From positions 1 to 24,170 of IMG/VR virus record IMGVR_UViG_3300025687_004724: DNA of 24,170 nucleotides. One strand, 5' to 3'. The DNA comes from a virus. Every line of letters begins with the position of its first letter. The stretch's first letter is position 1. Position numbers and translations under genes: made by a program. Below the pieces are notes generated by a model, which had not been told where the DNA came from, did not search any database, and worked only from the letters and a program-made list of their open reading frames with translations. This document shows, piece after piece, positions 5,310 to 23,131 of the stretch.

Positions 5310-5336
5310 ATAAGAACTTGAGAAAGAGAATTGATA

Positions 5337-5843
5337 ATGCCAACACAACCTAAACGATTCAAGATGATCAACGAAGCCTTAGATTGGGCGATGGAAGCGA
5401 AGACTACAGATGATCTTCGCGAAAGAGTTCGTGCTATTTCCCTCGGTAATAGTATCCTTATGCGCTTTCTTGCGTGGGGGGTTGGTTATGAAGAGGGACC
5501 GTCGAACCTCCCCGAAGGTGCTCCACCTCTGAAGGACGAAGGTTTGCCAGAAGGTATCTCAGATGCCACGATTACCAGCGAGTTCCGTAGACTTCTTGTT
5601 CTGCTGCCTGAGGGTTCCGGTAAGAATGTAAAGCAGGTGCGCAGAGAGGAAATCTTCATTGAGGTCTGTCAGGGTGTGCACCCAAAGGAAGCAGATCTCA
5701 TAGTCGCAGCAAAGGATAAGACTCTACTGCAGATATATCCTAGACTCGCGGAAGTTCTCCCCGATTTTCTGACTGGATGGAAAGCACCAGAGGTTAAGAA
5801 GAAGAGGGTATCAAAAAAATCCTCGACCACTGCAGAAACTTAA
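5337..5843 (+). CDS. Phage protein resembling the DUF6433 family
   Basis: A 168-residue protein from the ATG at 5337, with AGAAAGAGA upstream; a TTG at 5331 is too close to that site. The pattern is that of a T4-like marine phage family (DUF6433): an N-terminal helix with LDWAMEAKTTDDLRERV, a proline-rich middle that gives a short Gly/Pro/Leu segment (NLPEGAPPLKDEG), then a conserved acidic-helical half containing EIFIEVCQGVHPKEADLI and AAKDKTLLQIYP. It ends in a Lys/Ser/Thr-rich tail. No enzyme motif is visible. Function is unknown; family naming is from memory of the pattern, so treat it as probable. Confidence 0.65.
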   Translation: MPTQPKRFKMINEALDWAMEAKTTDDLRERVRAISLGNSILMRFLAWGVGYEEGPSNLPEGAPPLKDEGLPEGISDATITSEFRRLLVLLPEGSGKNVKQVRREEIFIEVCQGVHPKEADLIVAAKDKTLLQIYPRLAEVLPDFLTGWKAPEVKKKRVSKKSSTTAET

Positions 5844-5880
5844 TAAATAAGTTCTTTCCACATAAGGAGACAGCAGTGAA

Positions 5881-6267
5881 ATGGGGAAAGTTCTCGAGCA
5901 CAAGCATCTGATCATCAGAGCAGAATTAAATAATCCACCTACATGCACAGACACGATCGAAAATTGGATGCGAGTGCTCGTCGATACCATTGGTATGAAG
6001 ATACTGATGGGCCCATACTCTGTTTATTCTGAGATGGCAGGAAACAAAGGATTAACTGCAGTAACAATCATAGAAACAAGTCATATTGCCATACATGTGT
6101 GGGACGAAGTGCATCCGGCATTAATGCAAATGGATGTCTATACTTGTTCAGCGCTTGACATAAATGATGTGTTCAACGCAATACAAATGTTTGATCCCGC
6201 CAAGACTGAATATAAATTTATTGATAGGGAACAAACATTATTGTTGCGTGATAAAGGAATGTTGTGA
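5881..6267 (+). CDS. speD: S-adenosylmethionine decarboxylase proenzyme
   Basis: A 128-residue pyruvoyl enzyme of the short (Bacillus/Thermotoga) SpeD type that makes decarboxylated SAM, the aminopropyl donor for spermidine. The self-cleavage region reads IETSHIAIHVWDE: Ser67 is the expected pyruvoyl residue, His72 the processing histidine, and Cys89 in DVYTCSA the catalytic cysteine. In cellular enzymes the residue before the cleaved serine is normally Glu; here it is Thr66, with the Glu one place earlier. AAGGAG at 5864-5869 is the ribosome site. SpeD is known as an auxiliary gene in marine T4-like phages. It likely supports polyamine supply for DNA packing or host physiology; that role is inferred. 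Confidence 0.88.
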   Translation: MGKVLEHKHLIIRAELNNPPTCTDTIENWMRVLVDTIGMKILMGPYSVYSEMAGNKGLTAVTIIETSHIAIHVWDEVHPALMQMDVYTCSALDINDVFNAIQMFDPAKTEYKFIDREQTLLLRDKGML

Positions 6268-6767
6268 GCACACAAAAATACTATCTGTTTCAATGTCGTA
6301 ATGAGTTATGGATCGTAAAGGATTCAGAGGCAGTCCCCAAACCAAGAGAACTGCTTATCCAAACATCGAACATCGAGTATTTGCGCGAATATGCTCATAA
6401 AATTCCCAAGATAACAAAAATAAATGACAAGGTTTCGCGTCAGAGAAATGACCACTGGACTCCAGAAGGTCGTAAGATTATGTCTGAAAAGAAACTCGGA
6501 AGCAATAATCCAATGCACGGGGGATTGTCTGAAGAGCATAAACTGAAGATTAGTAGAACTATGCGCGGAACTCGACGAGGTGAAAACAATCCGATGTATG
6601 GTCGTCGGCATAGACACGAAACTCGACGCAAAATGAGTATTGCTCAGAGCATGCGTGTTCGCAAATGGTGTGTGGAACCTTCGGGTAAAACGCACCTCGT
6701 TGATCCAAGAACGTTCATACTTCCTGGTGGTTGGAAATGGGGAAGATTTTTCGATCCTTACAAATAA
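6264..6767 (+). CDS. NUMOD3-containing homing-endonuclease-like protein without an obvious catalytic domain
   Basis: A 167-residue protein on a GTG start that overlaps the speD stop (GTGA) and has AAGGA six bases upstream. The middle carries two tandem NUMOD3 DNA-binding repeats, GSNNPMHGGLSEEHKLKIS and GENNPMYGRRHRHETRRKMS (about residues 78-126). These normally follow a GIY-YIG or HNH nuclease domain. Here the N-terminal 60 residues show neither motif. The C-terminus (WCVEPSGKTHLVD...LPGGWKWGRF) resembles tails on phage HNH and GIY-YIG proteins. It may be a degenerate homing enzyme or a regulator built from its DNA-binding part. The two possibilities cannot be separated from sequence alone. 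Confidence 0.75.
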   Translation: MSTQKYYLFQCRNELWIVKDSEAVPKPRELLIQTSNIEYLREYAHKIPKITKINDKVSRQRNDHWTPEGRKIMSEKKLGSNNPMHGGLSEEHKLKISRTMRGTRRGENNPMYGRRHRHETRRKMSIAQSMRVRKWCVEPSGKTHLVDPRTFILPGGWKWGRFFDPYK

Positions 6768-6772
6768 AATTA

Positions 6773-6801
6773 TTGACTTCTGACGAAAACTAGGGTATAT
6801 T
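6773..6801 (+). promoter_or_regulatory. Promoter of a putative small RNA
   Basis: TTGACT (6773-6778), a 17-base spacer, then TATATT (6796-6801), just after the NUMOD3 gene. Predicted start is about 6808, only 65 bases before a strong terminator, with no plausible ORF in between. Confidence 0.7.
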
Positions 6802-6807
6802 GATAAT

Positions 6808-6872
6808 ATACTGAATAGGGGTTGCTACCTAATAGGCACGCGAGGGACCATGGTTAGTCCCTCAGTTTTTTG
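6808..6872 (+). ncRNA. Putative phage small RNA of about 65 nt
   Basis: Defined by the promoter at 6773-6801 and the terminator ending at 6871. The predicted transcript has a 5' hairpin (TAGG 6816-6819 with CCTA 6828-6831, 8-base loop GGTTGCTA), a short single-stranded linker AATAGGCACGC, and the terminator hairpin GAGGGAC/GTCCCTC. There is no start codon with a usable reading frame. The structure (5' stem, open seed-like linker, terminator) is like a trans-acting small RNA. It may instead be only an attenuated leader or a terminator for the upstream operon with a spurious promoter. I recognise no known RNA family. Confidence 0.5.
6842..6871 (+). terminator. Intrinsic terminator
   Basis: A perfect 7-bp stem GAGGGAC (6842-6848) / GTCCCTC (6857-6863) with an 8-base loop, followed by AG and a run of six T (6866-6871). 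It is the clearest rho-independent terminator in the window. It ends the speD-NUMOD3 transcript and the putative small RNA. Confidence 0.9.
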
Positions 6873-6922
6873 AAAAAAAGATGATTTAGGGGCTTGACTT
6901 TTTCCTCGTTTTATGGTAGAAT
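6873..6922 (+). promoter_or_regulatory. Strong early promoter with A-tract UP-like element
   Basis: A run of seven A and GATGATTT (6873-6887) precede TTGACT (6894-6899), a 17-base spacer, and TAGAAT (6917-6922). The whole block from 6873 to 6923 is repeated with few changes at 23115-23165. It drives the small membrane peptide, both tRNAs and the SGNH hydrolase. Confidence 0.85.
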
Positions 6923-6955
6923 GTATATATTGATTGAGTGAAGGAATAAGTAATT

Positions 6956-7090
6956 ATGTTTCAGGTTATCCGTGATCTTAAGTCTGTTATGACTCCTGAA
7001 GAATTTCGTAACGAGATCTTCGGTGGTATCTTTTTCTTGATCGGGTTTCCGATTGTGTTTGCAGGTCTCTGGATTATTTCGCCTGTTTGA
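6956..7090 (+). CDS. Single-helix membrane peptide, 44 residues
   Basis: The ATG at 6956 has AAGGA at 6941-6945. After a short charged N-terminus (FQVIRDLKSVMTPEEFRNE) comes a hydrophobic segment from about residue 23 to 42 (FGGIFFLIGFPIVFAGLWII), long enough to span a membrane once. It is the first gene after the strong promoter at 6873-6922, so it is likely expressed early and highly. Small early membrane peptides in T4-like phages often act on the host envelope or superinfection, but I recognise no family here and do not assign a role. Confidence 0.7.
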   Translation: MFQVIRDLKSVMTPEEFRNEIFGGIFFLIGFPIVFAGLWIISPV

Positions 7091-7098
7091 AAGTTAAT

Positions 7099-7175
7099 GG
7101 TCCCGTAGCTCAGCAGGATAGAGCACGTGCCTTCTAAGCATGGGGTCAGAGGTTCGAGTCCTCTCGGGATCGCCA
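7099..7175 (+). tRNA. tRNA-Arg (anticodon UCU)
   Basis: A full cloverleaf: acceptor GGTCCCG/CGGGATC with one G-T pair, D-arm GCTC/GAGC, anticodon stem CGTGC/GCATG with loop CTTCTAA, T-stem AGAGG/CCTCT with loop TTCGAGT, and an encoded CCA at 7173-7175. The anticodon TCT (7133-7135) reads AGA, a codon used repeatedly in the phage genes here. Confidence 0.95.
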
Positions 7176-7190
7176 TCTCGGACCTTTAGC

Positions 7191-7267
7191 AGGGATATAG
7201 TCCAACAGGCAGAGACAGAGGACTTAAAATCCTTCCAGTGTGGGTTCGAATCCCACTATCCCTACCA
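7191..7267 (+). tRNA. tRNA-Leu-like (anticodon UAA) with a short variable loop
   Basis: Acceptor AGGGATA/TATCCCT (7 bp), T-stem GTGGG/CCCAC with loop TTCGAAT, anticodon stem GAGGA/TCCTT with loop CTTAAAA, encoded CCA at 7265-7267. The anticodon is TAA, which reads UUA (Leu). The variable region is only about five bases (CCAGT) and the total is 77 nt, whereas bacterial and T4 tRNA-Leu have a long variable arm. The charging identity is therefore less certain than the fold. It abuts the ribosome site of the next gene. Confidence 0.85.
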
Positions 7268-7279
7268 AGAGGAATATAT

Positions 7280-7696
7280 ATGTTAGAATGTTTGATTATT
7301 GGCGATAGTATCGCAGTCGGTACTAAGATGTTTGCTCCCACGGAATGTGTTTCGTATTCTAAGGGTGGGTGGAACACTTGGCAGTGGAATCAGAAGTGGG
7401 GCAAGACTCCGCTTGAAGCGAAGACGATTGTGATCAGTCTTGGAACGAACGACCATTCTGGTGTTAAAACCGAGAAAGAACTGATGAAGATTCGCACTCG
7501 TATTAAGATGGGAAATGTTGTTTGGATTATGCCTCCGTGTAATGCGAAGTTCTGCAAACCAGCAGTCAACGCTACAGTGAAGAGCATTGCTTACAACTAT
7601 GGAGATCGTATCATTGCTACGTCTTATGTTCAACCAGATGGTATCCATCCTTCATGGCGCGGATATAAGGAATTGGTGAGAAAGGCAGGACTTTAA
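7280..7696 (+). CDS. Small SGNH/GDSL-type hydrolase
   Basis: A 138-residue protein. The ATG at 7280 is chosen because AGAGGA (7268-7273) directly precedes it and the longer frame would run back into the tRNA. It shows the family blocks in order: IIGDSIAVG (residues 6-14, nucleophile Ser in GDS), LGTNDHSG (block III Asn) and DGIHPSWRGY (block V, catalytic Asp and His). The block II glycine may be in SYSKGGW. It is shorter than most SGNH esterases (about 200). These enzymes remove acyl or acetyl groups from glycans or lipids; for a phage a surface-sugar deacetylase is plausible, but the substrate is unknown. It ends in a TAATG overlap with the next gene. Confidence 0.85.
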   Translation: MLECLIIGDSIAVGTKMFAPTECVSYSKGGWNTWQWNQKWGKTPLEAKTIVISLGTNDHSGVKTEKELMKIRTRIKMGNVVWIMPPCNAKFCKPAVNATVKSIAYNYGDRIIATSYVQPDGIHPSWRGYKELVRKAGL

Positions 7697-8262
7697 TGTA
7701 TGTAAAGATAGGACCATATAAGAATTGGTTTGGTCCATTCCAACTGGCTGAAAAGATCCTGTTCTGGAAGGACAAGGAAGATGATGCGGTCTACGATCTG
7801 GGAGAGAAGATTAGCGAAACTTTCATCGACGATTTTCTTTTCTGGATTGACAGCAAGAAGAAGCGCACCAAAAAGGTTCGTATCGACAAGTTTGACACTT
7901 GGAGCATGGACCGCACTCTTGCTGTGATCATTCTGCCCATGCTCAAGCAACTCAAGGCAACCAACCATGGCGCACCCTTTGTTGATGACAAGGATGTACC
8001 CAAGCACTTGAAGTCAACTAGCGCACCAGAACTTACACGGGAAGAAAAAGACTGTGGTGCTACTGATGCGTTTCATTTTGAACGTTGGAACTGGGTCATG
8101 GACGAAATGATCTGGGCATTTGAACAGATCGTGAATGACAGCAAAGAGCATCTCTATTTTGAAGATGGCACTCTTGATGTAGAAGGGTGTAAGGCATACA
8201 ACAAGCGTATTGACAACGGCACCCGACTGTTTGGTGTTTACTTCCGCGGATTGTGGGACTAA
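7696..8262 (+). CDS. Conserved phage protein of unknown function, 188 residues
   Basis: Starts in the TAATG overlap with the SGNH stop. The sequence has a pattern I associate with uncharacterised proteins of marine T4-like phages: KVRIDKFDTWSMDRTLAVIILPMLKQLK around residues 60-85, a following HGAPFVDDKDVP, and FHFERWNWVMDEMIWAFEQI in the second half. Aromatic residues and charged helices dominate, with no signal or membrane segment. It appears well conserved, which suggests a structural or assembly role, but nothing in the sequence proves this. Confidence 0.85.
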   Translation: MYVKIGPYKNWFGPFQLAEKILFWKDKEDDAVYDLGEKISETFIDDFLFWIDSKKKRTKKVRIDKFDTWSMDRTLAVIILPMLKQLKATNHGAPFVDDKDVPKHLKSTSAPELTREEKDCGATDAFHFERWNWVMDEMIWAFEQIVNDSKEHLYFEDGTLDVEGCKAYNKRIDNGTRLFGVYFRGLWD

Positions 8263-8268
8263 AATATT

Positions 8269-9729
8269 ATGCCAGCAATTTCTAGAGAGATAATCTCTGA
8301 CAACTTTGTAGGGATCAACTTACCTGAAGGTGACTCTTATGATAAGTCGCAATTGGCAGATAAGATCGACAGGTGGAAATATTATCTGGTTGAAAAATGC
8401 TCTGCTAAGAAAGGCGACCGGATTATAATCGGAATTTCCGCTATCTCAGTAGATTTTGTTGCACTATGCTTTGCTGCATTCGAACTTTCTTTGGTCTTGG
8501 TTGTTGCTGCGGATGAACCAATCCGATCAGTTGCTGATAAAACAATTGTTAATCCCAAAACCACCAAGTTGCTGCCTATCGACATTCTGATCTGGGAAAG
8601 TATTCCGGAAGAAGGTGATGAGGTGCTGAGTGCATCAAGGAAATTCAATTTCTATAAACAAAACTGCAGGATTTACAAGAGTCTTGGTGATTTCTACAGA
8701 ACAGAATTTCCAGAAGATCTGGGTCATGCTCCGTCTATAATGCCAGACGAAAATGATCTGTTAATGCTAACAACAAGCAGCGGATCGACTGGGACTGCCA
8801 AACTTGTTGAACACACTCACAAATTCTTCAGATCTCTGTGCGAACGCAACTCTAAAGAATTTTCCGGTAACATTGTGCATTGCAACAACATGCACCATGG
8901 TAGCAGTTTGAGCGTATTCTATTTACCTTCATTGATTAGTGATGACATAACAACGCATTATTTTATACCTTGTTATGAGAATCACTACGATCGTTTTGCT
9001 AGGGACATCAAGGGTATTGATCTGAATCACCTTTCTGTACCGTATATTAAATTCGTGGAAGGTGTTCTTGATGCATTCGTGGAAGAGGATGCTAAGTTTC
9101 CTAACATGCGATTGTCTTTGCTGACGTATGTTCCTTCGTTTTGCAAGAAATTTATTGAAGAAGGGTATATTGCTGAGGTCGAAAGTATCTTTGGTTCGAA
9201 TGAAACTGCTGGTCCAGTTTTTCTGTCGAGAATTAATTCTGAGAACATGAGTAATTATGACAATCGTTTGTTTTATAAACCAGATTCTTTCTATGACATC
9301 ACATTAGATGATGGAGAACTTAGTGTTAAACTCCCTCATTATGAGAAGACAATCAAAACAAATGATTTGTTCTCTTATGATGGTGATTCTTACCGACATA
9401 TGGGTCGTTCGGATCTCGTGAGAATTAATGATGTGACTGTCGATTTTGAGTTCTTTAACAATCTATCACAACAATATCGTAATGACATAATTATTACTAC
9501 TGATGGAATTGAGAATAAAATTTATTTGGTTGTCCAGAGGGATTCTATACTACACAAAAGTATGGAAATGCCCGAATTAATACGGCAATTAGACACAAAG
9601 ATACGAGTATACTATTCTACGGATCGTTTGCAAATAGATAAATACGTTGTTGAGGATTTCTCTGTTTTTTACAGTGGAGTCAAAATAGATAAAGAACTTA
9701 TTAGAGAGTATTTTAAACAACATGTTTAG
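8269..9729 (+). CDS. ANL-superfamily adenylate-forming enzyme (acyl-CoA synthetase / adenylation-domain type)
   Basis: A 486-residue enzyme predicted to activate a carboxylate with ATP as an acyl-AMP, and possibly pass it to a thiol or amine. ANL motifs appear in order: the ATP loop LTTSSGSTGTAKLVEHTH (residues 167-184), FGSNETAG (308-315) in place of YGxTE, the TGD-like TNDLFSYDGD (364-373), the hinge GRSDLVRIND (379-388) and a C-terminal lysine motif GVKIDKEL (470-477). It is slightly shorter than typical ligases (500-550), and the core around residues 190-300 is divergent, so substrate cannot be read. No carrier protein or condensation domain is fused. The first 50 residues are unusual. 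It heads the accessory block, followed by overlapping genes. Function class is fairly firm; substrate and acceptor are unknown. Confidence 0.88.
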   Translation: MPAISREIISDNFVGINLPEGDSYDKSQLADKIDRWKYYLVEKCSAKKGDRIIIGISAISVDFVALCFAAFELSLVLVVAADEPIRSVADKTIVNPKTTKLLPIDILIWESIPEEGDEVLSASRKFNFYKQNCRIYKSLGDFYRTEFPEDLGHAPSIMPDENDLLMLTTSSGSTGTAKLVEHTHKFFRSLCERNSKEFSGNIVHCNNMHHGSSLSVFYLPSLISDDITTHYFIPCYENHYDRFARDIKGIDLNHLSVPYIKFVEGVLDAFVEEDAKFPNMRLSLLTYVPSFCKKFIEEGYIAEVESIFGSNETAGPVFLSRINSENMSNYDNRLFYKPDSFYDITLDDGELSVKLPHYEKTIKTNDLFSYDGDSYRHMGRSDLVRINDVTVDFEFFNNLSQQYRNDIIITTDGIENKIYLVVQRDSILHKSMEMPELIRQLDTKIRVYYSTDRLQIDKYVVEDFSVFYSGVKIDKELIREYFKQHV

Positions 9730-10000
9730 CAAACATCTAGAGAAAAGTAAAGAAACATATATAAGTCATCTAATTTGGGCAATCCTTGCTAGTCTTAGAT
9801 TGCTTTGGGCAGCGATTGCTAGTCTTATTCATGGGTTCTTTCCGAATCTGTTTCCTGGGACAGCAGCGAAGACAGTGATTGACCTATACCACAAACGTCT
9901 AGTCAATCATCCCAATAAAGAATACCAAAAATATATTGATTTCTACGAGAAAAAATATGAAAGAAGAATTAATTCGAAGATTGACTCTGATGCACACTAA
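9722..10000 (+). CDS. DUF6356-like small membrane-associated protein
   Basis: A 92-residue protein whose start overlaps the end of the adenylating-enzyme gene by eight bases. It begins MFSKHLEKSKETYISHLIWAI, then LLWAAIASLIHGFFPNLFP and GTAAKTVIDLYHKRL. This matches the pattern of DUF6356: HL..ETY..H, a hydrophobic region, an IHxxxP turn and a TA/TASxTI helix before a basic end. That family occurs in alphaproteobacteria and marine phages and is uncharacterised. Two hydrophobic helices (about 16-40) suggest membrane contact. Link to the adenylating enzyme is by overlap only. Confidence 0.7.
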   Translation: MFSKHLEKSKETYISHLIWAILASLRLLWAAIASLIHGFFPNLFPGTAAKTVIDLYHKRLVNHPNKEYQKYIDFYEKKYERRINSKIDSDAH

Positions 10001-10112
10001 TCTTATGAATGAGGCAACAGAGGCAAGAACACGAGGAGGAACAATGGCGATGAAAATCGGTTCTCGTGCGAAGTTGATTAAAGAAACCATTGACTTTCTC
10101 GAAAAAATATAG
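9957..10112 (+). CDS. Small helical protein, 51 residues
   Basis: An ATG at 9957 inside the 3' end of the DUF6356-like gene (44-base overlap) opens a frame ending at TAG 10110-10112. The product is basic and amphipathic, KEELIRRLTLMHTNLMNEATEARTRG then KIGSRAKLIKETIDFLEKI, consistent with two helices. No motif or family is recognised. The following promoter -10 starts directly after its stop codon. Coding is supported by the uninterrupted frame and by its filling the gap, not by homology. Confidence 0.6.
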   Translation: MKEELIRRLTLMHTNLMNEATEARTRGGTMAMKIGSRAKLIKETIDFLEKI

Positions 10113-10120
10113 TATAAATA
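10090..10120 (+). promoter_or_regulatory. Composite sigma70-like / TATAAATA late-type promoter
   Basis: TTGACT (10090-10095), a 17-base spacer, then TATAAATA (10113-10120), which is both a good -10 and a perfect T4 late core. The ATG of the next gene is at 10127, so a transcript from here would have almost no leader. Confidence 0.65.
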
Positions 10121-10126
10121 TTTTTA

Positions 10127-10690
10127 ATGCAGTTTGTAAAGACCATAGACACAGACATTTTGAGTTCTAGATTGAAGGCAGAGGTCTATCAACTTCTGAA
10201 CGAGCATCAACTACTTGAAAAGACACAAGTGAGTCTGACCAGCATAAATGGCGACAATAATTGGGATGAGTCGACGGGAAAACTTCACTCGCTCTCTCAT
10301 GAAGAGAAATCCTACTCTAAACTAAACGTCGCGCTGACTGACACATACATCGCAGAACTTCTAGCAAGATATCCAGAGTATTATCGTTGGCGACTTCTGC
10401 GGATAAATCCACGTTCATGCTATAGCATACACACAGACAAACTATTAGGGAATACCATGAACGTTCGTCTTCACATTCCTGTGGTTACGAACGATAATGC
10501 ATTTCTATGTTTTTTCTCTCAACGTCCCGTCGGGAGTTCTACGCAAATGGTGCGATATGAGCATCTTTCAGAGGGTAAAAGTTATCGCGTGAACACCACC
10601 GGATTTCATACTGCAGTAAATCATGGACTCGAACCAAGATACCACATAGTGGGAGTTAAGTATGAAGATAGCGATAACTGGTCACTCTAG
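10127..10690 (+). CDS. Aspartyl/asparaginyl beta-hydroxylase-like 2OG-Fe(II) oxygenase
   Basis: A 187-residue protein. The C-terminal half has the iron and 2-oxoglutarate signature of the Asp/Asn hydroxylase (AspH-like) branch: RINPRSCYSIHTD with His102 and Asp104, RLHIPVVTNDNAF, then NTTGFHTAVNHG with His161, and EPRYHIVGV with Arg171 as the expected 2OG-binding arginine. The N-terminal 80 residues are a helical lead-in. Such enzymes hydroxylate amino-acid side chains or free amino acids using O2 and 2OG, releasing succinate. It overlaps the SDR start by 29 bases, so the two are co-translated. Substrate is unknown. A role in modifying the product of the neighbouring adenylating enzyme is a guess from context. 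Confidence 0.78.
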   Translation: MQFVKTIDTDILSSRLKAEVYQLLNEHQLLEKTQVSLTSINGDNNWDESTGKLHSLSHEEKSYSKLNVALTDTYIAELLARYPEYYRWRLLRINPRSCYSIHTDKLLGNTMNVRLHIPVVTNDNAFLCFFSQRPVGSSTQMVRYEHLSEGKSYRVNTTGFHTAVNHGLEPRYHIVGVKYEDSDNWSL

Positions 10691-11201
10691 TGGCATAGGT
10701 AAAGCAATCGCCGACGCATATCCCTTGGTGGTTGGATTTAGTCGTGGAAACGGATATGATATATCTGATCCAAAAACAATCGATAGAATTCTAGAAGAGA
10801 TCGATGACTGTGATGTGTTCGTAAACAATGCACACAGTGGTAATGCGCAACTTCAAATCTTTCAGAAACTATTGAAGAAGTGGCGTGATGATAATACCAA
10901 GACGATCGTCAACATCAACAGCAAAACCATCTATAACAAACCAAACAATCGGCAGTATACGACCGAAAAGAAATTCCTGAGATCTGCTGCGATCGATGCT
11001 ATCAATGACATAGAACGAAAGTGTCGTGTCATCAACATCAATGTTGGATATGTTACCACTAGTAGAGTTTCTCATTTGATCGGGAAACAACCGATGTTAT
11101 TCCCAGAAGAAATAGCAACCATGATCAAGTGGTGCATAGATAAACCTCTAAACATAGAGGTCGGAGAATTATCCGTTTGGTCGAAAGATATTATGGTTTG
11201 A
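10662..11201 (+). CDS. Short-chain dehydrogenase/reductase (SDR)
   Basis: A 179-residue, compact SDR. The nucleotide-binding TGHSSGIG (residues 6-13, TGxxxGxG), the NNAHSG element (55-60), Ser87 in NINSKT and the YxxxK pair Tyr99/Lys103 (QYTTEK) are all present, so an active NAD(P)-dependent oxidoreductase is likely. It is about 60-70 residues shorter than classical SDRs; the substrate-binding region after Lys103 is reduced. It overlaps the upstream 2OG oxygenase by 29 bases. Its stop overlaps the end of the convergent protease gene by 11 bases. Substrate unknown; a sugar, polyol or hydroxy acid would all fit. Confidence 0.85.
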   Translation: MKIAITGHSSGIGKAIADAYPLVVGFSRGNGYDISDPKTIDRILEEIDDCDVFVNNAHSGNAQLQIFQKLLKKWRDDNTKTIVNINSKTIYNKPNNRQYTTEKKFLRSAAIDAINDIERKCRVININVGYVTTSRVSHLIGKQPMLFPEEIATMIKWCIDKPLNIEVGELSVWSKDIMV

Positions 11202-12912
11202 AAGCTGTTGTTATGCCGGTTCGCGCATTACTTACTCCGGAAGTGGATCTTTCTGTCTCTAATGCTGCAGCAAGATCAGAATCATAACTATAATCTGTAG
11301 AGTCTCTGTCTGGGTCTGTAGCAAAAAAGAACATTGGGTTGGAATATTCTACCCCAGATGTAGAAGTTTGCTTCACTTTAAATTTTACAACTTCGAGCGT
11401 CTTACCTTCGGGCAGTGGTATATTTGGTTTGGTAATTGTTACCGCTGCTGTTGATGCATCCAACGCAACGAATTCTTCATACTTTAATCTAATATCTTCG
11501 TCTAACCATACCAACTCATATGAACACGGTTCCCCGAATGGGTCAATAGATCCTTCGAAATTGTAATTATAGACATTATATGTTATTTCGGTAAGATCGC
11601 CGTTGAAGTATCCCAGATACAAGTTAATGTTCAAAGTATCCAACGGCACAGAACCATCAATCAAGTGAACCATTCTATTTGCGTCTACGAATTTTTCTGT
11701 GTCCAACAACAGAATGTTTTGTGTAGAATCATTTATCAGAATTTGTAAGATCGACACTGGAGTCTGAAGCGATGGAGCGACTGCCATAATAGCAGAGGCA
11801 GCGCCTGTGACATATGCTGCTGATGCAGAGGTACCAGTCGGTCTGATATAGTTTCCATCATAATTCGCAACAGTTACCTCGACACCAGGAGCAAAGATGT
11901 CAACGAGTTGACCGAAGTTAGAGTCTACTTGCACCGCCGAGAAATTGTTGAAACCTGCAGCGATATCGTCGATGTCAGACGCAGCGACTGTAATTACATT
12001 CGGCAATCCAGCAGGGGTATAGTTCTCCACATTATCACCGAAGTTACCTGCTGCCGCGACAACAGTTACACCGGAATCAATCAATCGCTGAAACTTTTCA
12101 TCTAGATAGAAACTCTTTGTTGCCACCCACGAACAGTTTACAACTCTTGGTGTGCTAGGATCTGCGTCGTGATGTGCTCGAATCGCATCCAATGCTTGAC
12201 CAACTTCTAATAGAGAAGGTTTTTCAGAACCATCAAAAATCTTGACACTCATCAACTTCACATAATGCTGAAGTCCGGTGTTTACGCCAGCAACAGCAGA
12301 TGCCATAGCAGTGCCGTGACCAGTTGTATCAGCGAACGACTCAGCATATTTCTCTAGTGTGAAGAACTGAACCTTCTCTGTGTTGGGATCGCTAAATTCT
12401 ACATGGTCGAAATTTATACCTGAGTCCACGATAAAGACTTCAGGTTTTGTCTTGTAATCTGATTCTGCGATTTTGCGAAATTCCGTTGGGAGTGGTCTGA
12501 ATCTACCAGCAATACGCAGTCTTGCCCAATTAGCATTTTCATCGGCAAGAGTTACTGGCGAACCTTCAATCTCAGACATCAATTTGACAGGTGCATTGGC
12601 AGGATCCATTTTACCCGCGACTGCATCATACAGAGATAGGGGATCTTCCGTTGCGACGATATATGTGCCATCACCGAAATCCTGCACCACAACCAATTCC
12701 ACAGTCAGTGCGCTGATGTCAGCAGTTCTAATTATAAATTCCTCAGCACCTTCGCCGGAAACTGCTACAGAAACAACCGAATTATCCATCTTGATGGTGG
12801 TTAGAAGCGAGATCGGTGTGTTGATAGTCTCGCTGCCCGATGGTGTCAACCCACATTTGTTTGCGAATGCAGTACAAGCAGCAGCATCAGCGAATGTTAC
12901 AATATATTCCAT
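11191..12912 (-). CDS. Subtilisin-like serine protease (S8 family), reverse strand
   Basis: A 573-residue protein, the only clear minus-strand gene. The catalytic triad is intact: Asp163 (FIVDSGINFDH), His199 (DTTGHGTAMASAVAG) and Ser362 (PTGTSASAAYVTG), with oxyanion Asn290 (AAAGNFGDN). The first 140 residues are not protease-like and contain no signal peptide; they may be a pro-domain or virion-attachment region. About 190 residues after the catalytic domain look beta-rich, with a TSTSGVEYSNPMFF segment, and may be a beta-sandwich. The gene is preceded on its own strand by TATAAATA (12954-12947) and AAGGA, suggesting late expression and a virion or lysis-stage role. A virion-associated protease is my best guess; a virion assembly protease or host-directed protease cannot be excluded. 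Confidence 0.9.
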   Translation of the reverse strand: MEYIVTFADAAACTAFANKCGLTPSGSETINTPISLLTTIKMDNSVVSVAVSGEGAEEFIIRTADISALTVELVVVQDFGDGTYIVATEDPLSLYDAVAGKMDPANAPVKLMSEIEGSPVTLADENANWARLRIAGRFRPLPTEFRKIAESDYKTKPEVFIVDSGINFDHVEFSDPNTEKVQFFTLEKYAESFADTTGHGTAMASAVAGVNTGLQHYVKLMSVKIFDGSEKPSLLEVGQALDAIRAHHDADPSTPRVVNCSWVATKSFYLDEKFQRLIDSGVTVVAAAGNFGDNVENYTPAGLPNVITVAASDIDDIAAGFNNFSAVQVDSNFGQLVDIFAPGVEVTVANYDGNYIRPTGTSASAAYVTGAASAIMAVAPSLQTPVSILQILINDSTQNILLLDTEKFVDANRMVHLIDGSVPLDTLNINLYLGYFNGDLTEITYNVYNYNFEGSIDPFGEPCSYELVWLDEDIRLKYEEFVALDASTAAVTITKPNIPLPEGKTLEVVKFKVKQTSTSGVEYSNPMFFFATDPDRDSTDYSYDSDLAAALETERSTSGVSNARTGITTAFKP

Positions 12913-12946
12913 TAAGAGTTTCCTTGTTTATGGAGGTTTGTCCTAT

Positions 12947-12954
12947 TATTTATA
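12947..12954 (-). promoter_or_regulatory. Late-type promoter core (TATAAATA) for the protease gene
   Basis: Reads TATAAATA on the minus strand (TATTTATA on the plus strand), 35 bases upstream of the protease ATG (12912). No -35 box is visible, as expected for T4-type late promoters read with phage gp55-like sigma and the sliding clamp. A ribosome site AAGGA follows on the same strand. Confidence 0.65.
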
Positions 12955-12958
12955 ATGG

Positions 12959-12966
12959 TATAAATA
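12959..12966 (+). promoter_or_regulatory. Late-type promoter core (TATAAATA) for the PP-loop gene
   Basis: A perfect TATAAATA with no recognisable -35 box. The expected start is near 12973, followed by GAGGT (12976-12980) and the ATG at 12991. It is separated by only four bases from the opposite-strand copy at 12947-12954. Confidence 0.65.
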
Positions 12967-12990
12967 TGAGCAAGCGAGGTAAATTCTGTA

Positions 12991-13935
12991 ATGATAAAAT
13001 TTCATGACTACTGGTTGCAGCGAAATTATGCTGATGGTATCCTGACTTGGAAACTAAATTTAACACCAGAACAGATAAAATCTATTGACATTAATTCAAT
13101 TTACGAGTATTCTATAGAGGCAGTTACGTCGTTGCTGCCAGATCTCGGCGACAATCCCGCGATCTGTTTTAGCGGTGGCATAGACAGTCAAGTGATGCTT
13201 GAGTGTTTCCTGCGTGCAGGTGTCGATGTTACCATAGTCATCATGAGGTTTTCTAGTGGATTAAATGACCGCGACATAAAGACTGCAGTTGAATATTGCG
13301 AACGAAGGCAATTGAATTATAGATTTTTAGATCTAAATGTCACTAACTTCCTCGAGCGCGAGTTGCCGAGTTTTTCTGACAGATATGATGTTAGCAGTCC
13401 ACAATTCGCAACGCATTTTAAGATGTTTGAGATTTTAAAAGATAGTGGATTCTCATCAGCGATCGCTGCAGGAAACCCTGTGTCCAAATCTCTGAAAAAG
13501 TGGTATCTACCAACCAAAGAGGCAAGCGATTGGATTAAATTTTCAGATGACATCCAATGGAATATAATCGGAGACTTTCTCTTGCATAATTGGAGATTCT
13601 CTTTGTTACTGGGGTGCCTCTATGAAGAGAGCGGGGAAATGCCTAGTGGATTCCAAGCAATCAGAGATAAAGTTTACAAATTTAAGACCATAAGTTATAG
13701 ATCTGCCGATTTTGATATTATCCCACAGGAAACTAAGTTTACTGGATTCGAACAAGTCAAAGAGTATTACCATAAATCTACGGGCGACGGATGGTCTTTT
13801 GAAAAAAGATTTCGTTTTCCTCTACAAATTAAGAATGGTTCAACAGAGAAAATTGTTTTAGATGCCTCTGATGATCAGTTGAGTGCTTTGGAGTCACTAT
13901 ATGATAGATGCGCGAATCTCAGAAATCTCGTTTGA
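12991..13935 (+). CDS. PP-loop ATP pyrophosphatase (asparagine synthase-like or related)
   Basis: A 314-residue protein with the PP-loop motif FSGGIDSQVML at residues 60-70, which binds ATP and releases pyrophosphate in enzymes that adenylate a carboxyl or carbonyl oxygen (asparagine synthase B, NAD synthetase, QueC, thiouridylases). After it, VTIVIMRFSSGLNDRDIKTAVEYCERRQLNYRFLDLN gives the alternating beta-alpha pattern of the Rossmann-like core. There is no N-terminal glutaminase domain, cysteine pair or rhodanese domain, so sulfur transfer of the ThiI/TtcA sort is not indicated. The C-terminal half is rich in aromatics and unfamiliar. It has its own late-type promoter and overlaps the acetyltransferase gene by 35 bases. 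Substrate is not readable. Confidence 0.82.
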   Translation: MIKFHDYWLQRNYADGILTWKLNLTPEQIKSIDINSIYEYSIEAVTSLLPDLGDNPAICFSGGIDSQVMLECFLRAGVDVTIVIMRFSSGLNDRDIKTAVEYCERRQLNYRFLDLNVTNFLERELPSFSDRYDVSSPQFATHFKMFEILKDSGFSSAIAAGNPVSKSLKKWYLPTKEASDWIKFSDDIQWNIIGDFLLHNWRFSLLLGCLYEESGEMPSGFQAIRDKVYKFKTISYRSADFDIIPQETKFTGFEQVKEYYHKSTGDGWSFEKRFRFPLQIKNGSTEKIVLDASDDQLSALESLYDRCANLRNLV

Positions 13936-14371
13936 AGAAATAACTCCATTCTGGTTAAACCTGTGGTGGTGGCACACACCAGAAACTCTTGAGAGATTCA
14001 GTTATATGCGGTTCGGTGGTGGACACTTCAATGAAGTTAAAGATCCTGAGATAGCATACTTTGGGATCCAGTCTCGTGGTGAGATCGTGGGTGTTAACAG
14101 TATACACACTCTACCCGATGGAACCTGTCGCAGTAGAGGTTTGTGGGTCGATCCAACCCACAGAGGTAAAGGATTGGGTTTTGCATTATTGCACCACAGC
14201 ATTGGTTGGGCAGAAAACAGAGGGTTCTGGTCTTGGAGTTATCCGAGAGAAAGTAGTTTAGACACATATCTCTCTGCTGGATACGAATCTTCATCAGACT
14301 GGATTGTTTCAGAACATGGAATAAAAAACAAATTTGTTCGAAAATCCCTTGACAAACTGGTTGAAATATAG
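13901..14371 (+). CDS. GNAT-family N-acetyltransferase
   Basis: A 156-residue protein from the ATG at 13901, with GGAG at 13889-13892 in good spacing; a GTG at 13883 is possible but has a worse site. The acetyl-CoA motif RGLWVDPTHRGKGLGFALLHHSIGWAENRGF (residues 88-118) contains the R/QxxGxG loop as HRGKGLG, followed by a helix and the ARNRG-like turn. The N-terminal NLWWWHTPETLERFSYMRFGGGHF is unusual for its tryptophans. It overlaps the PP-loop gene by 35 bases, so the two enzymes are probably made together. The acceptor amine is unknown. Confidence 0.88.
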   Translation: MIDARISEISFEEITPFWLNLWWWHTPETLERFSYMRFGGGHFNEVKDPEIAYFGIQSRGEIVGVNSIHTLPDGTCRSRGLWVDPTHRGKGLGFALLHHSIGWAENRGFWSWSYPRESSLDTYLSAGYESSSDWIVSEHGIKNKFVRKSLDKLVEI

Positions 14372-14377
14372 TATATA
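14349..14377 (+). promoter_or_regulatory. Promoter of the tRNA-Thr / isocitrate lyase unit
   Basis: TTGACA (14349-14354), a 17-base spacer, then TATATA (14372-14377); the -35 lies in the last codons of the acetyltransferase gene. The sequence then continues TATAAATC, one base from the late core. A start near 14384 would give a transcript carrying tRNA-Thr, the folded leader and the isocitrate lyase gene. Confidence 0.75.
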
Positions 14378-14412
14378 TAAATCTGTAAGTTAATAGCGAG
14401 GTTGGAAGTTCC

Positions 14413-14487
14413 GCCGGATTAGCACAGTGGTAGTGCAGCGGTTTTGTAAACCGAAGGTCGGGAGTTCAAATCTCTCATCCGGCACCA
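14413..14487 (+). tRNA. tRNA-Thr (anticodon UGU)
   Basis: Acceptor GCCGGAT/ATCCGGC (7 bp), D-stem GCAC/GTGC, anticodon stem GCGGT/ACCGA with one mismatch at the outermost pair, loop TTTGTAA, T-stem GGGAG/CTCTC with loop TTCAAAT, discriminator A and encoded CCA. The anticodon TGT reads ACA. It lies alone in the leader of the isocitrate lyase transcript. Confidence 0.94.
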
Positions 14488-14493
14488 TTTTTA

Positions 14494-14614
14494 TTCCCTT
14501 GATCTGGGACACGCATATTAATAAGTCGTGCAATTAGACTAAGATCTCCTGCATTCAGGAGTACGTGGGGGTGGATCCCACAGGGAAATATAGTTATGAA
14601 CGGTAAGAAGGGAA
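14494..14614 (+). promoter_or_regulatory. Folded leader of the isocitrate lyase gene with a possible SD-sequestering switch
   Basis: This fills the gap between tRNA-Thr and the lyase start. TTCCCT (14494-14499) can close with AGGGAA (14582-14587) around a perfect hairpin CTCCTG/CAGGAG with loop CATT (14546-14561) and a 5-bp, 7-base-loop arm GTGGG/CCCAC (14565-14581), plus weaker pairs AGTC/GACT (14524-14527/14537-14540). TTCCCTT (14494-14500) can instead pair perfectly with AAGGGAA (14608-14614), which is the ribosome site of the ATG at 14621. The two pairings exclude each other. I do not recognise a known riboswitch. A decayed tRNA is possible because the last arm and closing stem are tRNA-like, but no anticodon arm is found. 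Confidence 0.5.
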
Positions 14615-14620
14615 TTGATT

Positions 14621-15850
14621 ATGGGCGAGAAGCGAAATTACTCCGAAGCGGATGTAGCGAGACTTCGTGGAACGTTTGGCATCGAACACACGAGGGCAAA
14701 ACAAGGCGCACTGGATTTTCGAACCCTTCTTGCCTCAGAGCCGTTCGTTCGCACATTCGGGGCGTACAACGGTCAACAAGCAGTTCAACATGTGAAGGCA
14801 GGTCTTAGGGCAATCTATGTTTCGGGTTGGCAGGTAGCAGCTGCTCACAACTCTACGCAACAGACATATCCGGATCAGAGTCTGTATGCTGTTGACTCTG
14901 TGCCTAATGCGGTTCGCTCGATCCAGAATGCTTTCCGCAGGCAAGATCAAATTCAAGTTGTGGAAGGTATGTCATTTAGAGATCCTGATTATCGGATGTG
15001 GGGTAATGTTCCTATCATTGCTGATGCTGAAGCAGGTTTCGGTGGTGCATTGAATGCATACGAACTAACTCGTAGTCTGATTGAGGCAGGTGCTGCTGCA
15101 GTACACTTCGAAGATCAATTGGCAGCGGAAAAGAAATGTGGTCACCTTGGCGGTAAGGTTCTCATTCCCACTTCGCAGGCAATTCGTAATCTCAATGCAG
15201 CGCGACTTGCTTCTGATGTTGAACGTACTGACACAGTAATCATTGCTCGTACTGATGCGGAAGCTGCTAGACTACTTTTATCGGATATCGATGATGTGGA
15301 CAAGAAGTTCCTTACAGGTAAGAGGACAGAAGAAGGATTTTATGAAATCACTGGTGGAATGGAGATGGGTTGTGAACGTGGCCAAGCGTTCGCTGAATAC
15401 GCCGACCTAGTCTGGTGTGAGACATCTAAACCATGTCTCAAGGAAGCCAAGCAATTCGCTGATGCTGTCCGAGGTGCCTTCCCAGATCAACTGCTGGCGT
15501 ATAACTGTTCACCTTCGTTTAATTGGAAGCAACATCTTCCATCAGATACAGAACTTGCAGAGTTTCAAACAGAACTTGGTAAGATGGGATTTAAGTTCCA
15601 GTTTATCACTCTTGCTGGATTTCACTCAACAAACTATGCGGTGTTTGACTTTGCTAAGCAATATGCACAAGATGGTATGCTCGCGTATTCGAATTTACAA
15701 CAAAAAGAGTTTGCAGCCCTTGATCAAGGATTTACGTCTGTCAAGCACCAGCGAGAGGTTGGGGTTGGATACTTCGATGCAATCTCTCAGGCTGTAGGCG
15801 CTAGTTCTGTTGCTGCTCTAAAAGATTCTACAGAATCTGAACAATTCTAA
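14621..15850 (+). CDS. aceA: Isocitrate lyase
   Basis: A complete 409-residue enzyme that splits isocitrate to glyoxylate and succinate (glyoxylate shunt). The signature KKCGHLGGKV with catalytic Cys173 (residues 171-180) is the isocitrate lyase form, not the KRCGH of methylisocitrate lyase. Also present are the metal-binding ADAEAGFGG (134-142), the substrate loops SGWQVAA and YNCSPSFNWKQH, and the family's C-terminal ending STESEQF. Length is near E. coli AceA (434). The start at 14621 has GAAGGGAA upstream; a TTG at 14615 is less suitable. No malate synthase or isocitrate dehydrogenase kinase lies in the window. A phage would gain glyoxylate and succinate from host isocitrate while bypassing CO2 loss. 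It is not frame-damaged, so it looks functional. Confidence 0.96.
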   Translation: MGEKRNYSEADVARLRGTFGIEHTRAKQGALDFRTLLASEPFVRTFGAYNGQQAVQHVKAGLRAIYVSGWQVAAAHNSTQQTYPDQSLYAVDSVPNAVRSIQNAFRRQDQIQVVEGMSFRDPDYRMWGNVPIIADAEAGFGGALNAYELTRSLIEAGAAAVHFEDQLAAEKKCGHLGGKVLIPTSQAIRNLNAARLASDVERTDTVIIARTDAEAARLLLSDIDDVDKKFLTGKRTEEGFYEITGGMEMGCERGQAFAEYADLVWCETSKPCLKEAKQFADAVRGAFPDQLLAYNCSPSFNWKQHLPSDTELAEFQTELGKMGFKFQFITLAGFHSTNYAVFDFAKQYAQDGMLAYSNLQQKEFAALDQGFTSVKHQREVGVGYFDAISQAVGASSVAALKDSTESEQF

Positions 15851-15887: not shown

Positions 15888-16469
15888 ATGCATTATGATA
15901 CTGACAAAGTGATTCTTACCGATGCCGATGGCGTTCTGCTTAACTGGGAATATGCATTCGATTGCTGGATGCAAGACCATGGTCATAAGCGGATCCGTAA
16001 TGATGTTTATGACGTTCATGAACGCTACGGCATTCCAAAGATGGAAGCCAAAGGTCTGGTCAAGATCTTTAATGAGTGTGCAGCCATTGGTTTCCTTCCT
16101 CCTCAGCGTGATGCTATGCATTACGTAAAGAAACTTCACGAACAACATGGTTACGTTTTCGTAGTGATTACCAGTTTGAGTCTGGATCCTTACGCTAAGA
16201 AACTACGGACTCGAAATCTTGAGAAACTGTTTGGCACTGCCATTCGCGAAGTTATCTGTCTTGCCACTGGTGCCAATAAGGACGAAGTGTTGGAAAAGTA
16301 TCGTGATAGTGGTCTCTTCTGGATTGAAGATAAAGTTGAGAATGCTATCGTTGGTAAAGAGTTGGGTCTTGAATCTATCTTGGTTGAACATGAGCACAAC
16401 ATGATGGTTGAAGGTATTCCTCTCGCAAAAAACTGGAAAGAGATCTATAACATAATTGTAGGAGTTTAA
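15888..16469 (+). CDS. HAD-superfamily hydrolase-like protein
   Basis: A 193-residue protein. VILTDADGVLLNW (residues 8-20) is the HAD motif I with nucleophile Asp12 and acid/base Asp14. VVITSLSLD (about 93-101) fits motif II (Ser/Thr), and FWIEDKVENAIVGKELG (about 145-161) fits motif IV. This is the pattern of small phosphatases such as 5'(3')-deoxyribonucleotidases, and similar proteins are common in T4-like marine phages. Start at 15888 follows GGAAGA at 15871-15876; a GTG at 15909 is the alternative. Substrate is unknown. A role in nucleotide or phosphosugar turnover is plausible. Confidence 0.78.
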   Translation: MHYDTDKVILTDADGVLLNWEYAFDCWMQDHGHKRIRNDVYDVHERYGIPKMEAKGLVKIFNECAAIGFLPPQRDAMHYVKKLHEQHGYVFVVITSLSLDPYAKKLRTRNLEKLFGTAIREVICLATGANKDEVLEKYRDSGLFWIEDKVENAIVGKELGLESILVEHEHNMMVEGIPLAKNWKEIYNIIVGV

Positions 16470-16470
16470 T

Positions 16471-17016
16471 ATGGAAAACTGGGCATCGCCGCCAAGCATC
16501 GTTCCGAACGTGGTGTTCAAGACTCGCGTTCGTGATGAATCTATTGAGGGACCAAACCCTTTTCGTTGGGAAGATAAGACATCGTTCGACTACTTCGGTG
16601 GCAAGCGTGTGGTTCTTTTCTCACTTCCTGGAGCATTTACACCCACCTGCTCAACCTACCAGCTTCCTGGATTCGAAGAGAAGTACGAGGAGTTTAAGGC
16701 ACTGGGCATCGACGAGATCTACTGCATCTCCGTCAACGATGCGTTTGTGATGAATTGCTGGGCAAAGGATCAGGGCGTAAAGAATGTCAAGATGATTCCT
16801 GATGGTTCGGGTGTGTTCACAGGTCAGATGGGCATGATCGTCAATAAGGACAATCTTGGTTTCGGTCTGCGCTCGTGGCGCTATGCCGCTATCATCGACA
16901 ATGGTGTCATTGAGAAGTGGTTTGTTGAACCAGGAAAAGATGATAACGTAGAAGAAGATCCTTACGGTAAGACTTCTCCTGAGCGTGTTCTAGAATGGGT
17001 CAAGGCATATGCGTAA
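16471..17016 (+). CDS. Peroxiredoxin (Prx5/thiol peroxidase type)
   Basis: A 181-residue peroxiredoxin. LPGAFTPTCS (about residues 53-62) holds the peroxidatic cysteine in the canonical PxxxT/SxxC context, and the FxxxFEEFKALGIDEIYCISVND arrangement and later RSWRYAAIIDNGVIEKWFVEP match the Prx5 (AhpC/TSA-like, redoxin) family. It reduces H2O2 and organic peroxides using thioredoxin or glutaredoxin; the phage glutaredoxin at 707-937 is a possible donor. GGAG (16461-16464) is a strong ribosome site. The next gene overlaps its end by eight bases. Phage peroxiredoxins are uncommon, and it probably protects infected cells from oxidative stress. Confidence 0.93.
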   Translation: MENWASPPSIVPNVVFKTRVRDESIEGPNPFRWEDKTSFDYFGGKRVVLFSLPGAFTPTCSTYQLPGFEEKYEEFKALGIDEIYCISVNDAFVMNCWAKDQGVKNVKMIPDGSGVFTGQMGMIVNKDNLGFGLRSWRYAAIIDNGVIEKWFVEPGKDDNVEEDPYGKTSPERVLEWVKAYA

Positions 17017-21372: not shown

Positions 21373-21712
21373 GGTTTGGGGTAAGACACAGTTGGTGCAC
21401 ACCAACAATTGTTTTGAATTTCATCGCATTGAGTTCGAGAAGGATCATGAGTGTTCGGTACACCTTCACAAGACAAAGTCTAATGGTTTCTTCGTGGAGT
21501 CTGGGCAACTTCTAATTCGCGTGTGGCAGGATGACGATCAGGATGGTCTGGTTGATGAGACAATCGTGAATCCTGGAGAATTTACCATTGTCCCTCCCAT
21601 GAAGAAGCACCAGTTTGTTGGTCTAAAGAGTGGTGTCGCATTTGAGTTGTATTGGGCAGAGTATGATCCCAACGACATCGTTCGTTTTTCGATCGGTAAG
21701 AAATGCGACTAA
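21359..21712 (+). CDS. Cupin-fold protein next to kdsA, possible sugar isomerase
   Basis: A 117-residue single cupin. HLH (His35, His37) and Glu47 in FFVESG give motif 1, and NPGEFTIVPPMKKHQF with His84 gives motif 2, so a metal site (three His and one Glu) is likely. I chose ATG 21359 because GAGAGAGGA (21339-21348) lies about 10 bases upstream; longer forms from 21311 are possible. It overlaps the kdsA start by 10 bases and kdsA overlaps kdsB, so it belongs to the Kdo operon. Cupin sugar isomerases and epimerases are known, for example D-lyxose isomerase. Producing or binding arabinose 5-phosphate, the KdsA substrate, is an attractive guess but not shown. Confidence 0.78.
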   Translation: MIQGKVWGKTQLVHTNNCFEFHRIEFEKDHECSVHLHKTKSNGFFVESGQLLIRVWQDDDQDGLVDETIVNPGEFTIVPPMKKHQFVGLKSGVAFELYWAEYDPNDIVRFSIGKKCD

Positions 21713-22467
21713 TTGCTGGCCCCTGCCAACACGAATCCCTCTCACAAAGTCTAGAGATCGCACGCGAGGGTATGCGTGTTGCAACTCTGTTTGGTATGAA
21801 ATATTTCTTCAAGGCAAGTTACGATAAGGCAAACAGAACACACATCTCAGGTAAGAGGGGACTGGGACTAGAGCAGACGATGCTCGACTTTGCCGCGATG
21901 AAGCAGGAACTTCCTGGACTGAAGATCCTCACAGATGTCCACGAGATTGGGCAGATAGATGCGATTAAAGACTTCGTCGATGTCATACAGATCCCTGCGT
22001 TTCTGTGTAGGCAGACTGATCTTATCAAAGCAGCAGTGGACACAGGTAAAATCGTCAACATCAAAAAAGGTCAGTTTCTGGCACCATGGGATGTCGGTGG
22101 TATCCTCTCCAAAACAGAAGGTGCTGAAGAGGTCTGGATTACCGAGAGAGGCACAAGTTTCGGATACAACAATCTGGTTGTGGATTTTTGCGGTATAAGA
22201 TATATGCTGGACAATTATGATGTTCCCATCGTATTTGATGCCACGCACTCAACGCAGAAACCAAGCGCATCTGGAAATGCATCAGGTGGTAATCGTGCAT
22301 ATGCACACCACCTCGCCAAATCTGCTGCCGCGATGGGTGTGAAGAACTTCTTCCTAGAGGTTCATCCTGACCCTGACAATGCACCGAGCGATGGTCCTAA
22401 CATGGTTTATCTACATGATCTAGAGAGAATTATGTATGAAGTCGAATGCCATATTGATCCCTGCTAG
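21703..22467 (+). CDS. kdsA: 3-deoxy-8-phosphooctulonate synthase (Kdo-8-P synthase), metal-dependent type
   Basis: A 254-residue aldolase-type enzyme that joins phosphoenolpyruvate and arabinose 5-phosphate. IAGPCQHES (residues 4-12) carries Cys8, which is the metal ligand of the metal-dependent (Aquifex-like) class; the E. coli enzyme has Asn there. The other ligands fit His182 (DATHS), Glu219 (FFLEVHPDP) and Asp230 (PSDGPN). KASYDKANR (38-45) is the PEP-binding signature, and IPAFLCRQTDL is conserved. It begins directly at the barrel start, shorter by about 25 residues than E. coli (284). It lies between the cupin and kdsB with overlaps on both sides, so all are one operon. Confidence 0.95.
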   Translation: MRLIAGPCQHESLSQSLEIAREGMRVATLFGMKYFFKASYDKANRTHISGKRGLGLEQTMLDFAAMKQELPGLKILTDVHEIGQIDAIKDFVDVIQIPAFLCRQTDLIKAAVDTGKIVNIKKGQFLAPWDVGGILSKTEGAEEVWITERGTSFGYNNLVVDFCGIRYMLDNYDVPIVFDATHSTQKPSASGNASGGNRAYAHHLAKSAAAMGVKNFFLEVHPDPDNAPSDGPNMVYLHDLERIMYEVECHIDPC

Positions 22468-23131
22468 ATACGGCAGCACAAGATTCCCAGCAAAACCTCT
22501 CGCCAAACTCGGCGAACAAACAATGATCGAGCGTGTCTTTTGGAGATGCGCTCGATCAGACATAGACACATTCGTTTTAACTGATAACGAAGAAATCTAC
22601 AATCTGATACCAGAGGGTCATGCTCTTCTCGACGACACACCATATAACAATGGAACGGAGAGATGCGCTGGTGCCATACGTCATCCGATGTTTGTCGATT
22701 ATAACTTCTTCATCAATGTGCAGGGCGATATGCCCGATATCTCCTATCAGGCGATCTATGGAGTTATAACGACACACACCATAGGAGACTATGAGGTTAC
22801 TACTGCATGCACCACTATGCCAGAAGATGAGCAGAATGATCCGAATGTTGTCAAGATAGTTCGTAGCAAGAATCACGCACTGTGGTTTGGGAGAGGTATC
22901 ACTGGATATGGAGAGAGGCACCTTGGCGTGTATGGATACACGAGACGTGCGCTCGATACATATGGAAAGAAGAATCCCTGTGTAGCGGAGATCGGCGAGG
23001 GACTCGAGCAGTTGCGCTGGTTGTATGCAGATATCCCCATCGGAGTCACGTGGGTTGAGTTTGATGGTGTCGAGATAAACGTTCCCGACGACATAAAAAA
23101 GTGGGAAAAAAATCAAAAAAAGATGATTTGA
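22436..23131 (+). CDS. kdsB: CMP-Kdo synthetase (3-deoxy-manno-octulosonate cytidylyltransferase)
   Basis: A 231-residue nucleotidyltransferase that activates Kdo as CMP-Kdo. The N-terminal AILIPARYGSTRFPAKPLA (residues 5-23) is the nucleotide-binding signature, and NVQGDMP (94-100) matches the conserved NVQGDEP with Asp98 kept but Met99 replacing Glu. NNGTERCAGAI fits the sugar-binding GTxR region. It overlaps kdsA by 32 bases. The last 10 codons are Lys-rich and at the same time form the A-tract of the next promoter. Together with kdsA it gives two consecutive steps to CMP-Kdo; the phosphatase KdsC and arabinose-5-P isomerase KdsD are not visible, unless the cupin serves the latter. Confidence 0.93.
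   Translation: MKSNAILIPARYGSTRFPAKPLAKLGEQTMIERVFWRCARSDIDTFVLTDNEEIYNLIPEGHALLDDTPYNNGTERCAGAIRHPMFVDYNFFINVQGDMPDISYQAIYGVITTHTIGDYEVTTACTTMPEDEQNDPNVVKIVRSKNHALWFGRGITGYGERHLGVYGYTRRALDTYGKKNPCVAEIGEGLEQLRWLYADIPIGVTWVEFDGVEINVPDDIKKWEKNQKKMI

Follow-up and report, generated by a model that had tools for sequence, protein, structure and literature searches.

Genetic context of the aceA gene

The stretch of DNA analyzed here, called the window, is an entire IMG/VR record of 24,170 bases and represents a fragment of a genome. Its aceA gene, for isocitrate lyase (ICL), occupies positions 14621-15850 on the plus strand, running from the ATG at 14621 to the TAA at 15850 and encoding 409 amino acids without internal stops. 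A Shine-Dalgarno-like AAGAAGGGA can be read from the sequence at 14605-14613 (+), and the catalytic motif KKCGH, placed by reading the sequence and its translation, falls at residues 171-175 (15131-15145, +). The initial annotation had described a complete gene carrying this motif, and both points stand.

The upstream neighbor of aceA is a GNAT acetyltransferase gene (13883-14371, +), followed by a tRNA-Thr(tgt) gene (14413-14487, +). Downstream lie genes for an HAD/NT5C-like nucleotidase (15888-16469, +) and a peroxiredoxin (Redoxin; 16471-17016, +), the latter also found near aceA in 13 other phage loci. Phage genes had been reported around aceA, and the T4-like markers of the window agree with this: an RNase H containing the T4 C-terminal domain (4413-5294, +, by domain and phage profile matches), the end of NrdA (21-695), a glutaredoxin (707-937), NrdB (1091-2062, +), a dCMP deaminase and a DUF6433 protein. 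The window holds three tRNAs. A subtilisin-like protease gene (Peptidase_S8, 11191-12912) lies on the minus strand, opposite to its neighbors. Genes for an AMP-binding enzyme, an Asp/Arg hydroxylase-like protein and a short-chain dehydrogenase stand in a row at 8269-11201; the row recurs in contig L004 and is mostly absent from other aceA phages. At 21703-23131, reading of the proteins identifies KdsA- and KdsB-like genes, which have no PHROG match; they suggest synthesis of KDO or surface sugars and a Gram-negative host.

Assembly of phage and host DNA into a chimera, or host DNA mistaken for phage, would explain an aceA gene in such a record, and 17 other ICL loci of the viral collection do adjoin aceB and may be host operons. 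Those 17 ICLs fall outside the phage branch described below, and their loci resemble host operons or genes acquired independently. The check for a chimera, which the initial annotation had named, was carried out on independent contigs. L004 is 99.9% identical to the window over 4622-15583 and spans the upstream aceA junction. L002 covers aceA together with the downstream HAD and peroxiredoxin genes and so spans the downstream junction, while L003 carries aceA (protein about 92% identical to that of the window) and the T4 major capsid gene, gp23, on one contig. The complete circular T4-like genome of phage C48C1 also holds aceA inside. Because independent contigs cover both junctions, an assembly chimera is ruled out, and this explanation as a whole retains next to no probability. 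The aceA gene sits in a genuine phage genome with no host flanks beside it, one of the features expected of a phage auxiliary metabolic gene.

Four exact copies of the T4-type late-promoter motif TATAAATA occur in the window against 0.93 expected by chance, in line with the earlier description of phage-type promoters in the surroundings. They are found at 2573, 10113, 12947 (-) and 12959, each a short distance ahead of an ORF with the same orientation, and two of them stand back to back in the gap that separates the subtilase gene from the PP-loop gene. A motif scan of the window found no exact copy directly before aceA. The nearest such motif is a candidate late-promoter-like TATAAATC with one mismatch (14376-14383, +), which precedes the tRNA-Thr gene as well as aceA, and a search of the plus strand immediately before aceA gave no sigma-70-like site. 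The claim that aceA has its own promoter is not upheld by these searches.

A leader of 133 nt (14488-14620, +) with two hairpins separates the tRNA-Thr gene from aceA. Its core element (14500-14590 in the window, 1588-1690 in L002) consists of CTCCYGCATTCRGGAG and GTGGG..CCCAC hairpins, which are kept in the window, L004 and L002 with one compensatory pair change, T-A to C-G. The core in this form turned up nowhere else in the viral collection, and L003 does not have it; a 14-mer scan for the element returned unspecific matches among the matches listed. An Rfam search of the leader stretch matched only the tRNA, and the predicted fold of the 133-nt stretch is no more stable than those of shuffled sequences. 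The leader proposed at the outset is present and partly conserved in one relative, although its overall fold does not exceed shuffles. It is possibly a regulatory RNA of unknown type.

Assignment to the isocitrate lyase family

The aceA product scores 631 bits with the NCBIfam equivalog model PRK15063.1 (isocitrate lyase; cut-off 562), covering model positions 27-428 of 430, and 521 bits with TIGR01346 (cut-off 276). It matches the Pfam ICL model PF00463 at 2.5e-99. Solved ICLs align with it end to end (E values of 5e-135 to 4e-153), whereas methylisocitrate lyases give only partial alignments at 1.6e-18 or weaker. Models for prpB return 111.9 bits (cut-off 354.4) and 89.3 bits (cut-off 353), and identity as a methylisocitrate lyase (PrpB) was dropped with both scores far under the cut-offs. 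From these profile scores the product is assigned as a true ICL rather than a methylisocitrate lyase, as first annotated. Dual methylisocitrate activity is known for some ICLs, and the window ICL may share it. A predicted structure based on an 11-row alignment was of poor quality (pLDDT 47.5) and was left unused; identity to solved ICLs made it unnecessary.

An alignment of 12 phage representatives shows invariant S68, G69, W70, D85, D135, E137, H162, E164, K171 through H175, R210, E267, N295, S297, S299 and T330. By alignment, the active-site residues have equivalents in Mycobacterium tuberculosis ICL1, where they bind Mg2+ and substrate. Cellular AceA proteins recognized by PRK15063 and TIGR01346 resemble the window ICL in full-length match, catalytic loop and active-site residues, and many bacterial examples are about 60% identical to it. 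The window ICL differs from them in being encoded in a phage genome, without an aceB partner, and in belonging to a deep branch of its own.

Phylogeny and distribution among phages

In a phylogenetic tree, the phage ICLs share a single branch with a small number of bacterial sequences (support 100/100), and a stem of 0.5 changes per site separates this branch from the ordinary AceA found in Proteobacteria, Actinomycetota, Bacillota and other groups. The tree thus places the window ICL in a deep, mostly phage branch. Within it, AceA of a family of marine gammaproteobacteria that includes MED656 joins the ICLs of the window and L002 in one group (100/96). For trees in which the bacterial sequences branch off elsewhere than in the phage clade, AU tests gave p values of 0.052 and 0.10, too high for a firm rejection, so that nesting of the bacterial sequences in the phage clade is suggestive only.

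The long stem might be expected of a paralogue with a shifted substrate, such as a methylisocitrate lyase or another activity of the PEP-mutase superfamily. The active-site residues are all retained, however, the best prpB score is 112 bits against a cut-off of 354, and the same type of ICL has taken the place of native aceA beside aceB in bacteria (see below). We consider a shifted substrate highly improbable.

A scan of IMG/VR found 174 contigs with close aceA relatives, from which 80 were retrieved and 79 full-length copies read. All 79 of these full-length copies in the phage branch, among them the one in the record of the window itself, contain KKCGH. Between the aceA genes of the window and L002, dN/dS is about 0.07; over 308 pairs from the branch the median is 0.06 and the maximum 0.16. 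Purifying selection acts on aceA, and the median value indicates that the protein has been retained for its function.

Profile searches for partner genes covered 51 aceA-bearing records including the window, most of them fragments and five of them 137-164 kb long. The initial annotation had called for a search of viral contigs for aceA together with T4-like markers, and gp23 occurs on 10 of the 51; many of its absences result from the shortness of the contigs. Malate synthase (PF01274), noted earlier as missing near aceA in the window, is found on none of the 51, and the same holds for serine hydroxymethyltransferase (SHMT). A search for close AceB relatives in viral contigs also found none. 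With psbA/psbD (PF00124) on 0/51 records, the usual photosynthesis-type T4-like cyanophage was dropped as an identity for these viruses. Phage aceA is embedded in no fewer than six distinct arrangements of neighboring genes, which indicates that the gene moved within phage genomes or was regained.

Contrary to the initial statement that no phage example was known, viral aceA has been reported from ocean viromes (PMC4053976), in an aceBA operon of the complete T4-like marine viral genome TARA_ERS478052_N000008 (PMC5332604), in viruses assigned to Pelagibacter (PMC10721903) and from lake sediment (PMC12783922), in reports dating from 2013, 2017, 2023 and 2026. The TARA genome is T4-like and carries aceA and KDO/LPS genes, as does the window, but its malate synthase gene adjoins aceA. 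A further example is phage C48C1 (OQ984149.1), whose complete T4-like genome is listed under Kyanoviridae: its CDS0055, annotated as a hypothetical protein, is an ICL 66.6% identical to that of the window, from which the phage differs in its other gene neighbors and in having an alternative oxidase. In the literature, most subscription journals and all preprints aside, we found no description of a phage-centered ICL branch, of phage aceA regularly lacking malate synthase, or of aceA replacement in bacteria. What the present analysis finds beyond the earlier reports is the deep phage branch, the missing partners, the purifying selection and the in-place replacement in bacteria.

The gp23-bearing contig L300 (IMGVR_UViG_3300021961_000201) encodes an ICL that shares 75% identity with the Pelagibacter enzyme and falls outside the phage branch; here a T4-like phage gained aceA independently. 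A 338-kb contig with gp23, L357, encodes an ICL with about 63% identity to the Pelagibacter one. The ICLs of L366 and L373 (also 63% to Pelagibacter) come out as the sister group of the phage branch in a quickly built tree that has no row for L357.

Phage-type aceA in a marine gammaproteobacterial family

The bacterial family that groups with the window phage has genomes of 1.1-1.6 Mb; MED656 has been tabulated together with UBA11654 genomes (PMC11409719). Phage-type aceA occurs in 7 of 11 family genomes, on contigs of up to 545 kb. The carriers are MED656 (GCA_002691305.1), G052-G055, G058 and G059. Their AceA proteins are 76-81% identical to the window ICL, but the genes differ from that of the window in being chromosomal, with aceB directly upstream in five genomes, at the site where another member, G057, holds an ordinary aceA.

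In all five genomes whose upstream region was read (G051, G053, G055, G058 and G059), aceA directly follows aceB; G054 showed no aceB upstream of its aceA. The fuller regions show the order ileS-lspA-fur-mrp-regulator, then aceB and aceA, with names assigned by reading of the proteins. G057 has this same block with the same aceB, followed by ordinary aceA, and in G061 an aceA of the ordinary type adjoins the regulator. A single chromosomal site, beside aceB, carries the phage type in G053, G055, G058 and G059 and the ordinary type in G057 and G061 (loci L199-L204).

The AceB tree places the family and the G118 family as sister groups, and the AceA tree pairs the ordinary sequences of G057 and G061 with the G118 family in the same way. 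The agreement indicates that the ordinary gene is vertical and the phage-type gene a newcomer at the native site; on gene order and trees, native aceA has been replaced in place. In the AceB tree G057 is not basal in the family but groups with G055 and G059, so the newcomer entered repeatedly, spread within the family, or was lost in G057. Between G058 and G059, phage-type aceA is 87% identical against 70% for aceB, 64% for ileS and 61% for the regulator, and this lower divergence fits a late arrival or spread.

A phage is the likely donor of the bacterial gene, with an unsampled bacterial source as a possible alternative. On balance we lean slightly toward a history in which phages hold an old ICL branch and passed it to bacteria, where it displaced native aceA in chromosomal aceBA and then spread in the family. 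If true, this would be an unusually clean virus-associated takeover of a core metabolic step, and a central-carbon enzyme of living bacteria would derive from a virus.

Phage-type aceA copies with in-frame stops or a frameshift occur at L204 (G055) and L168/L206 (G054), reflecting either sequencing error or gene decay. Outside the family, the 6-kb contig L198 (G118:C37) carries phage-type aceA, an alternative oxidase, a small protein (cluster 7) and cox genes; G118 is the only phage-type carrier in 40 genomes of its own family. The contig may be mis-binned, may represent a second transfer from phage to bacterium, or may hint at a bacterial source of the cassette.

Proposed role during infection

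We propose that a T4-like myovirus carries a working ICL as an auxiliary metabolic gene and that malate synthase of the host, probably a Gram-negative aquatic heterotroph, completes the bypass; we put the probability of this reading at roughly two-thirds. Catalytic activity, expression, the change in flux and the host are what we infer in it. During infection the phage enzyme would split host isocitrate into glyoxylate and succinate, competing with isocitrate dehydrogenase at the TCA branch point. The phage would provide this step only, leaving the malate synthase step to the host enzyme. Two carbons per turn would be retained as C4 acids, to serve as aspartate and pyrimidine precursors and in gluconeogenesis for phage-made sugars, and the NADH yield of infected cells would be lowered. 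The nearest cellular relatives of the phage ICL adjoin host aceB. Against the proposal, the TARA T4-like genome carries aceB (PMC5332604), and the partner is thus not always left to the host. ICL works at the metabolic fork between burning carbon and keeping it, and a phage branch that selection maintains without the usual partner makes the question of carbon use in infected heterotrophs testable.

With malate synthase and SHMT each on 0/51 records, no phage-borne next step was found, and this bears on the fate of glyoxylate. The initial annotation offered glycine, with one-carbon units for purines, as one possible destination; as the main one, it would be reached through host transaminases and host SHMT. 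The missing malate synthase and the nearby genes for DNA synthesis (NrdA/NrdB and dCMP deaminase) suit such a route. The missing SHMT does not, nor do the nearest bacterial homologues, which operate beside aceB; genomic support for the route is none, although host enzymes could supply it, and we judge it unlikely.

Alternatively, the gain to the phage might be redox relief, in which two NADH-producing steps are bypassed, succinate feeds the quinone pool and a phage alternative oxidase drains that pool. Alternative oxidase (PF01786) occurs on 18 of the 51 aceA records, and in 20 retrieved loci its distance from aceA is about 4 kb or less. The peroxiredoxin gene near aceA in the window and its 13 counterparts would suit a redox role. 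Yet the oxidase is commoner than aceA among viral contigs (428 matches versus 174), only 8 of 80 alternative oxidase loci hold aceA nearby, and none was found in the window, a fragment record, or in two near-complete aceA phages. Redox relief as the main function is decidedly unlikely, and completion of the bypass by host malate synthase remains our preferred reading.

The 20 loci with a nearby oxidase are L014, L022-L025, L027, L031, L033, L036, L037, L041, L044, L046, L048, L053, L056, L057, L059, L065 and L077. Near phage aceA, the oxidase is often accompanied by the small unnamed protein of cluster 7, the same one as on the G118 contig. In C48C1 the alternative oxidase is annotated as hypothetical.
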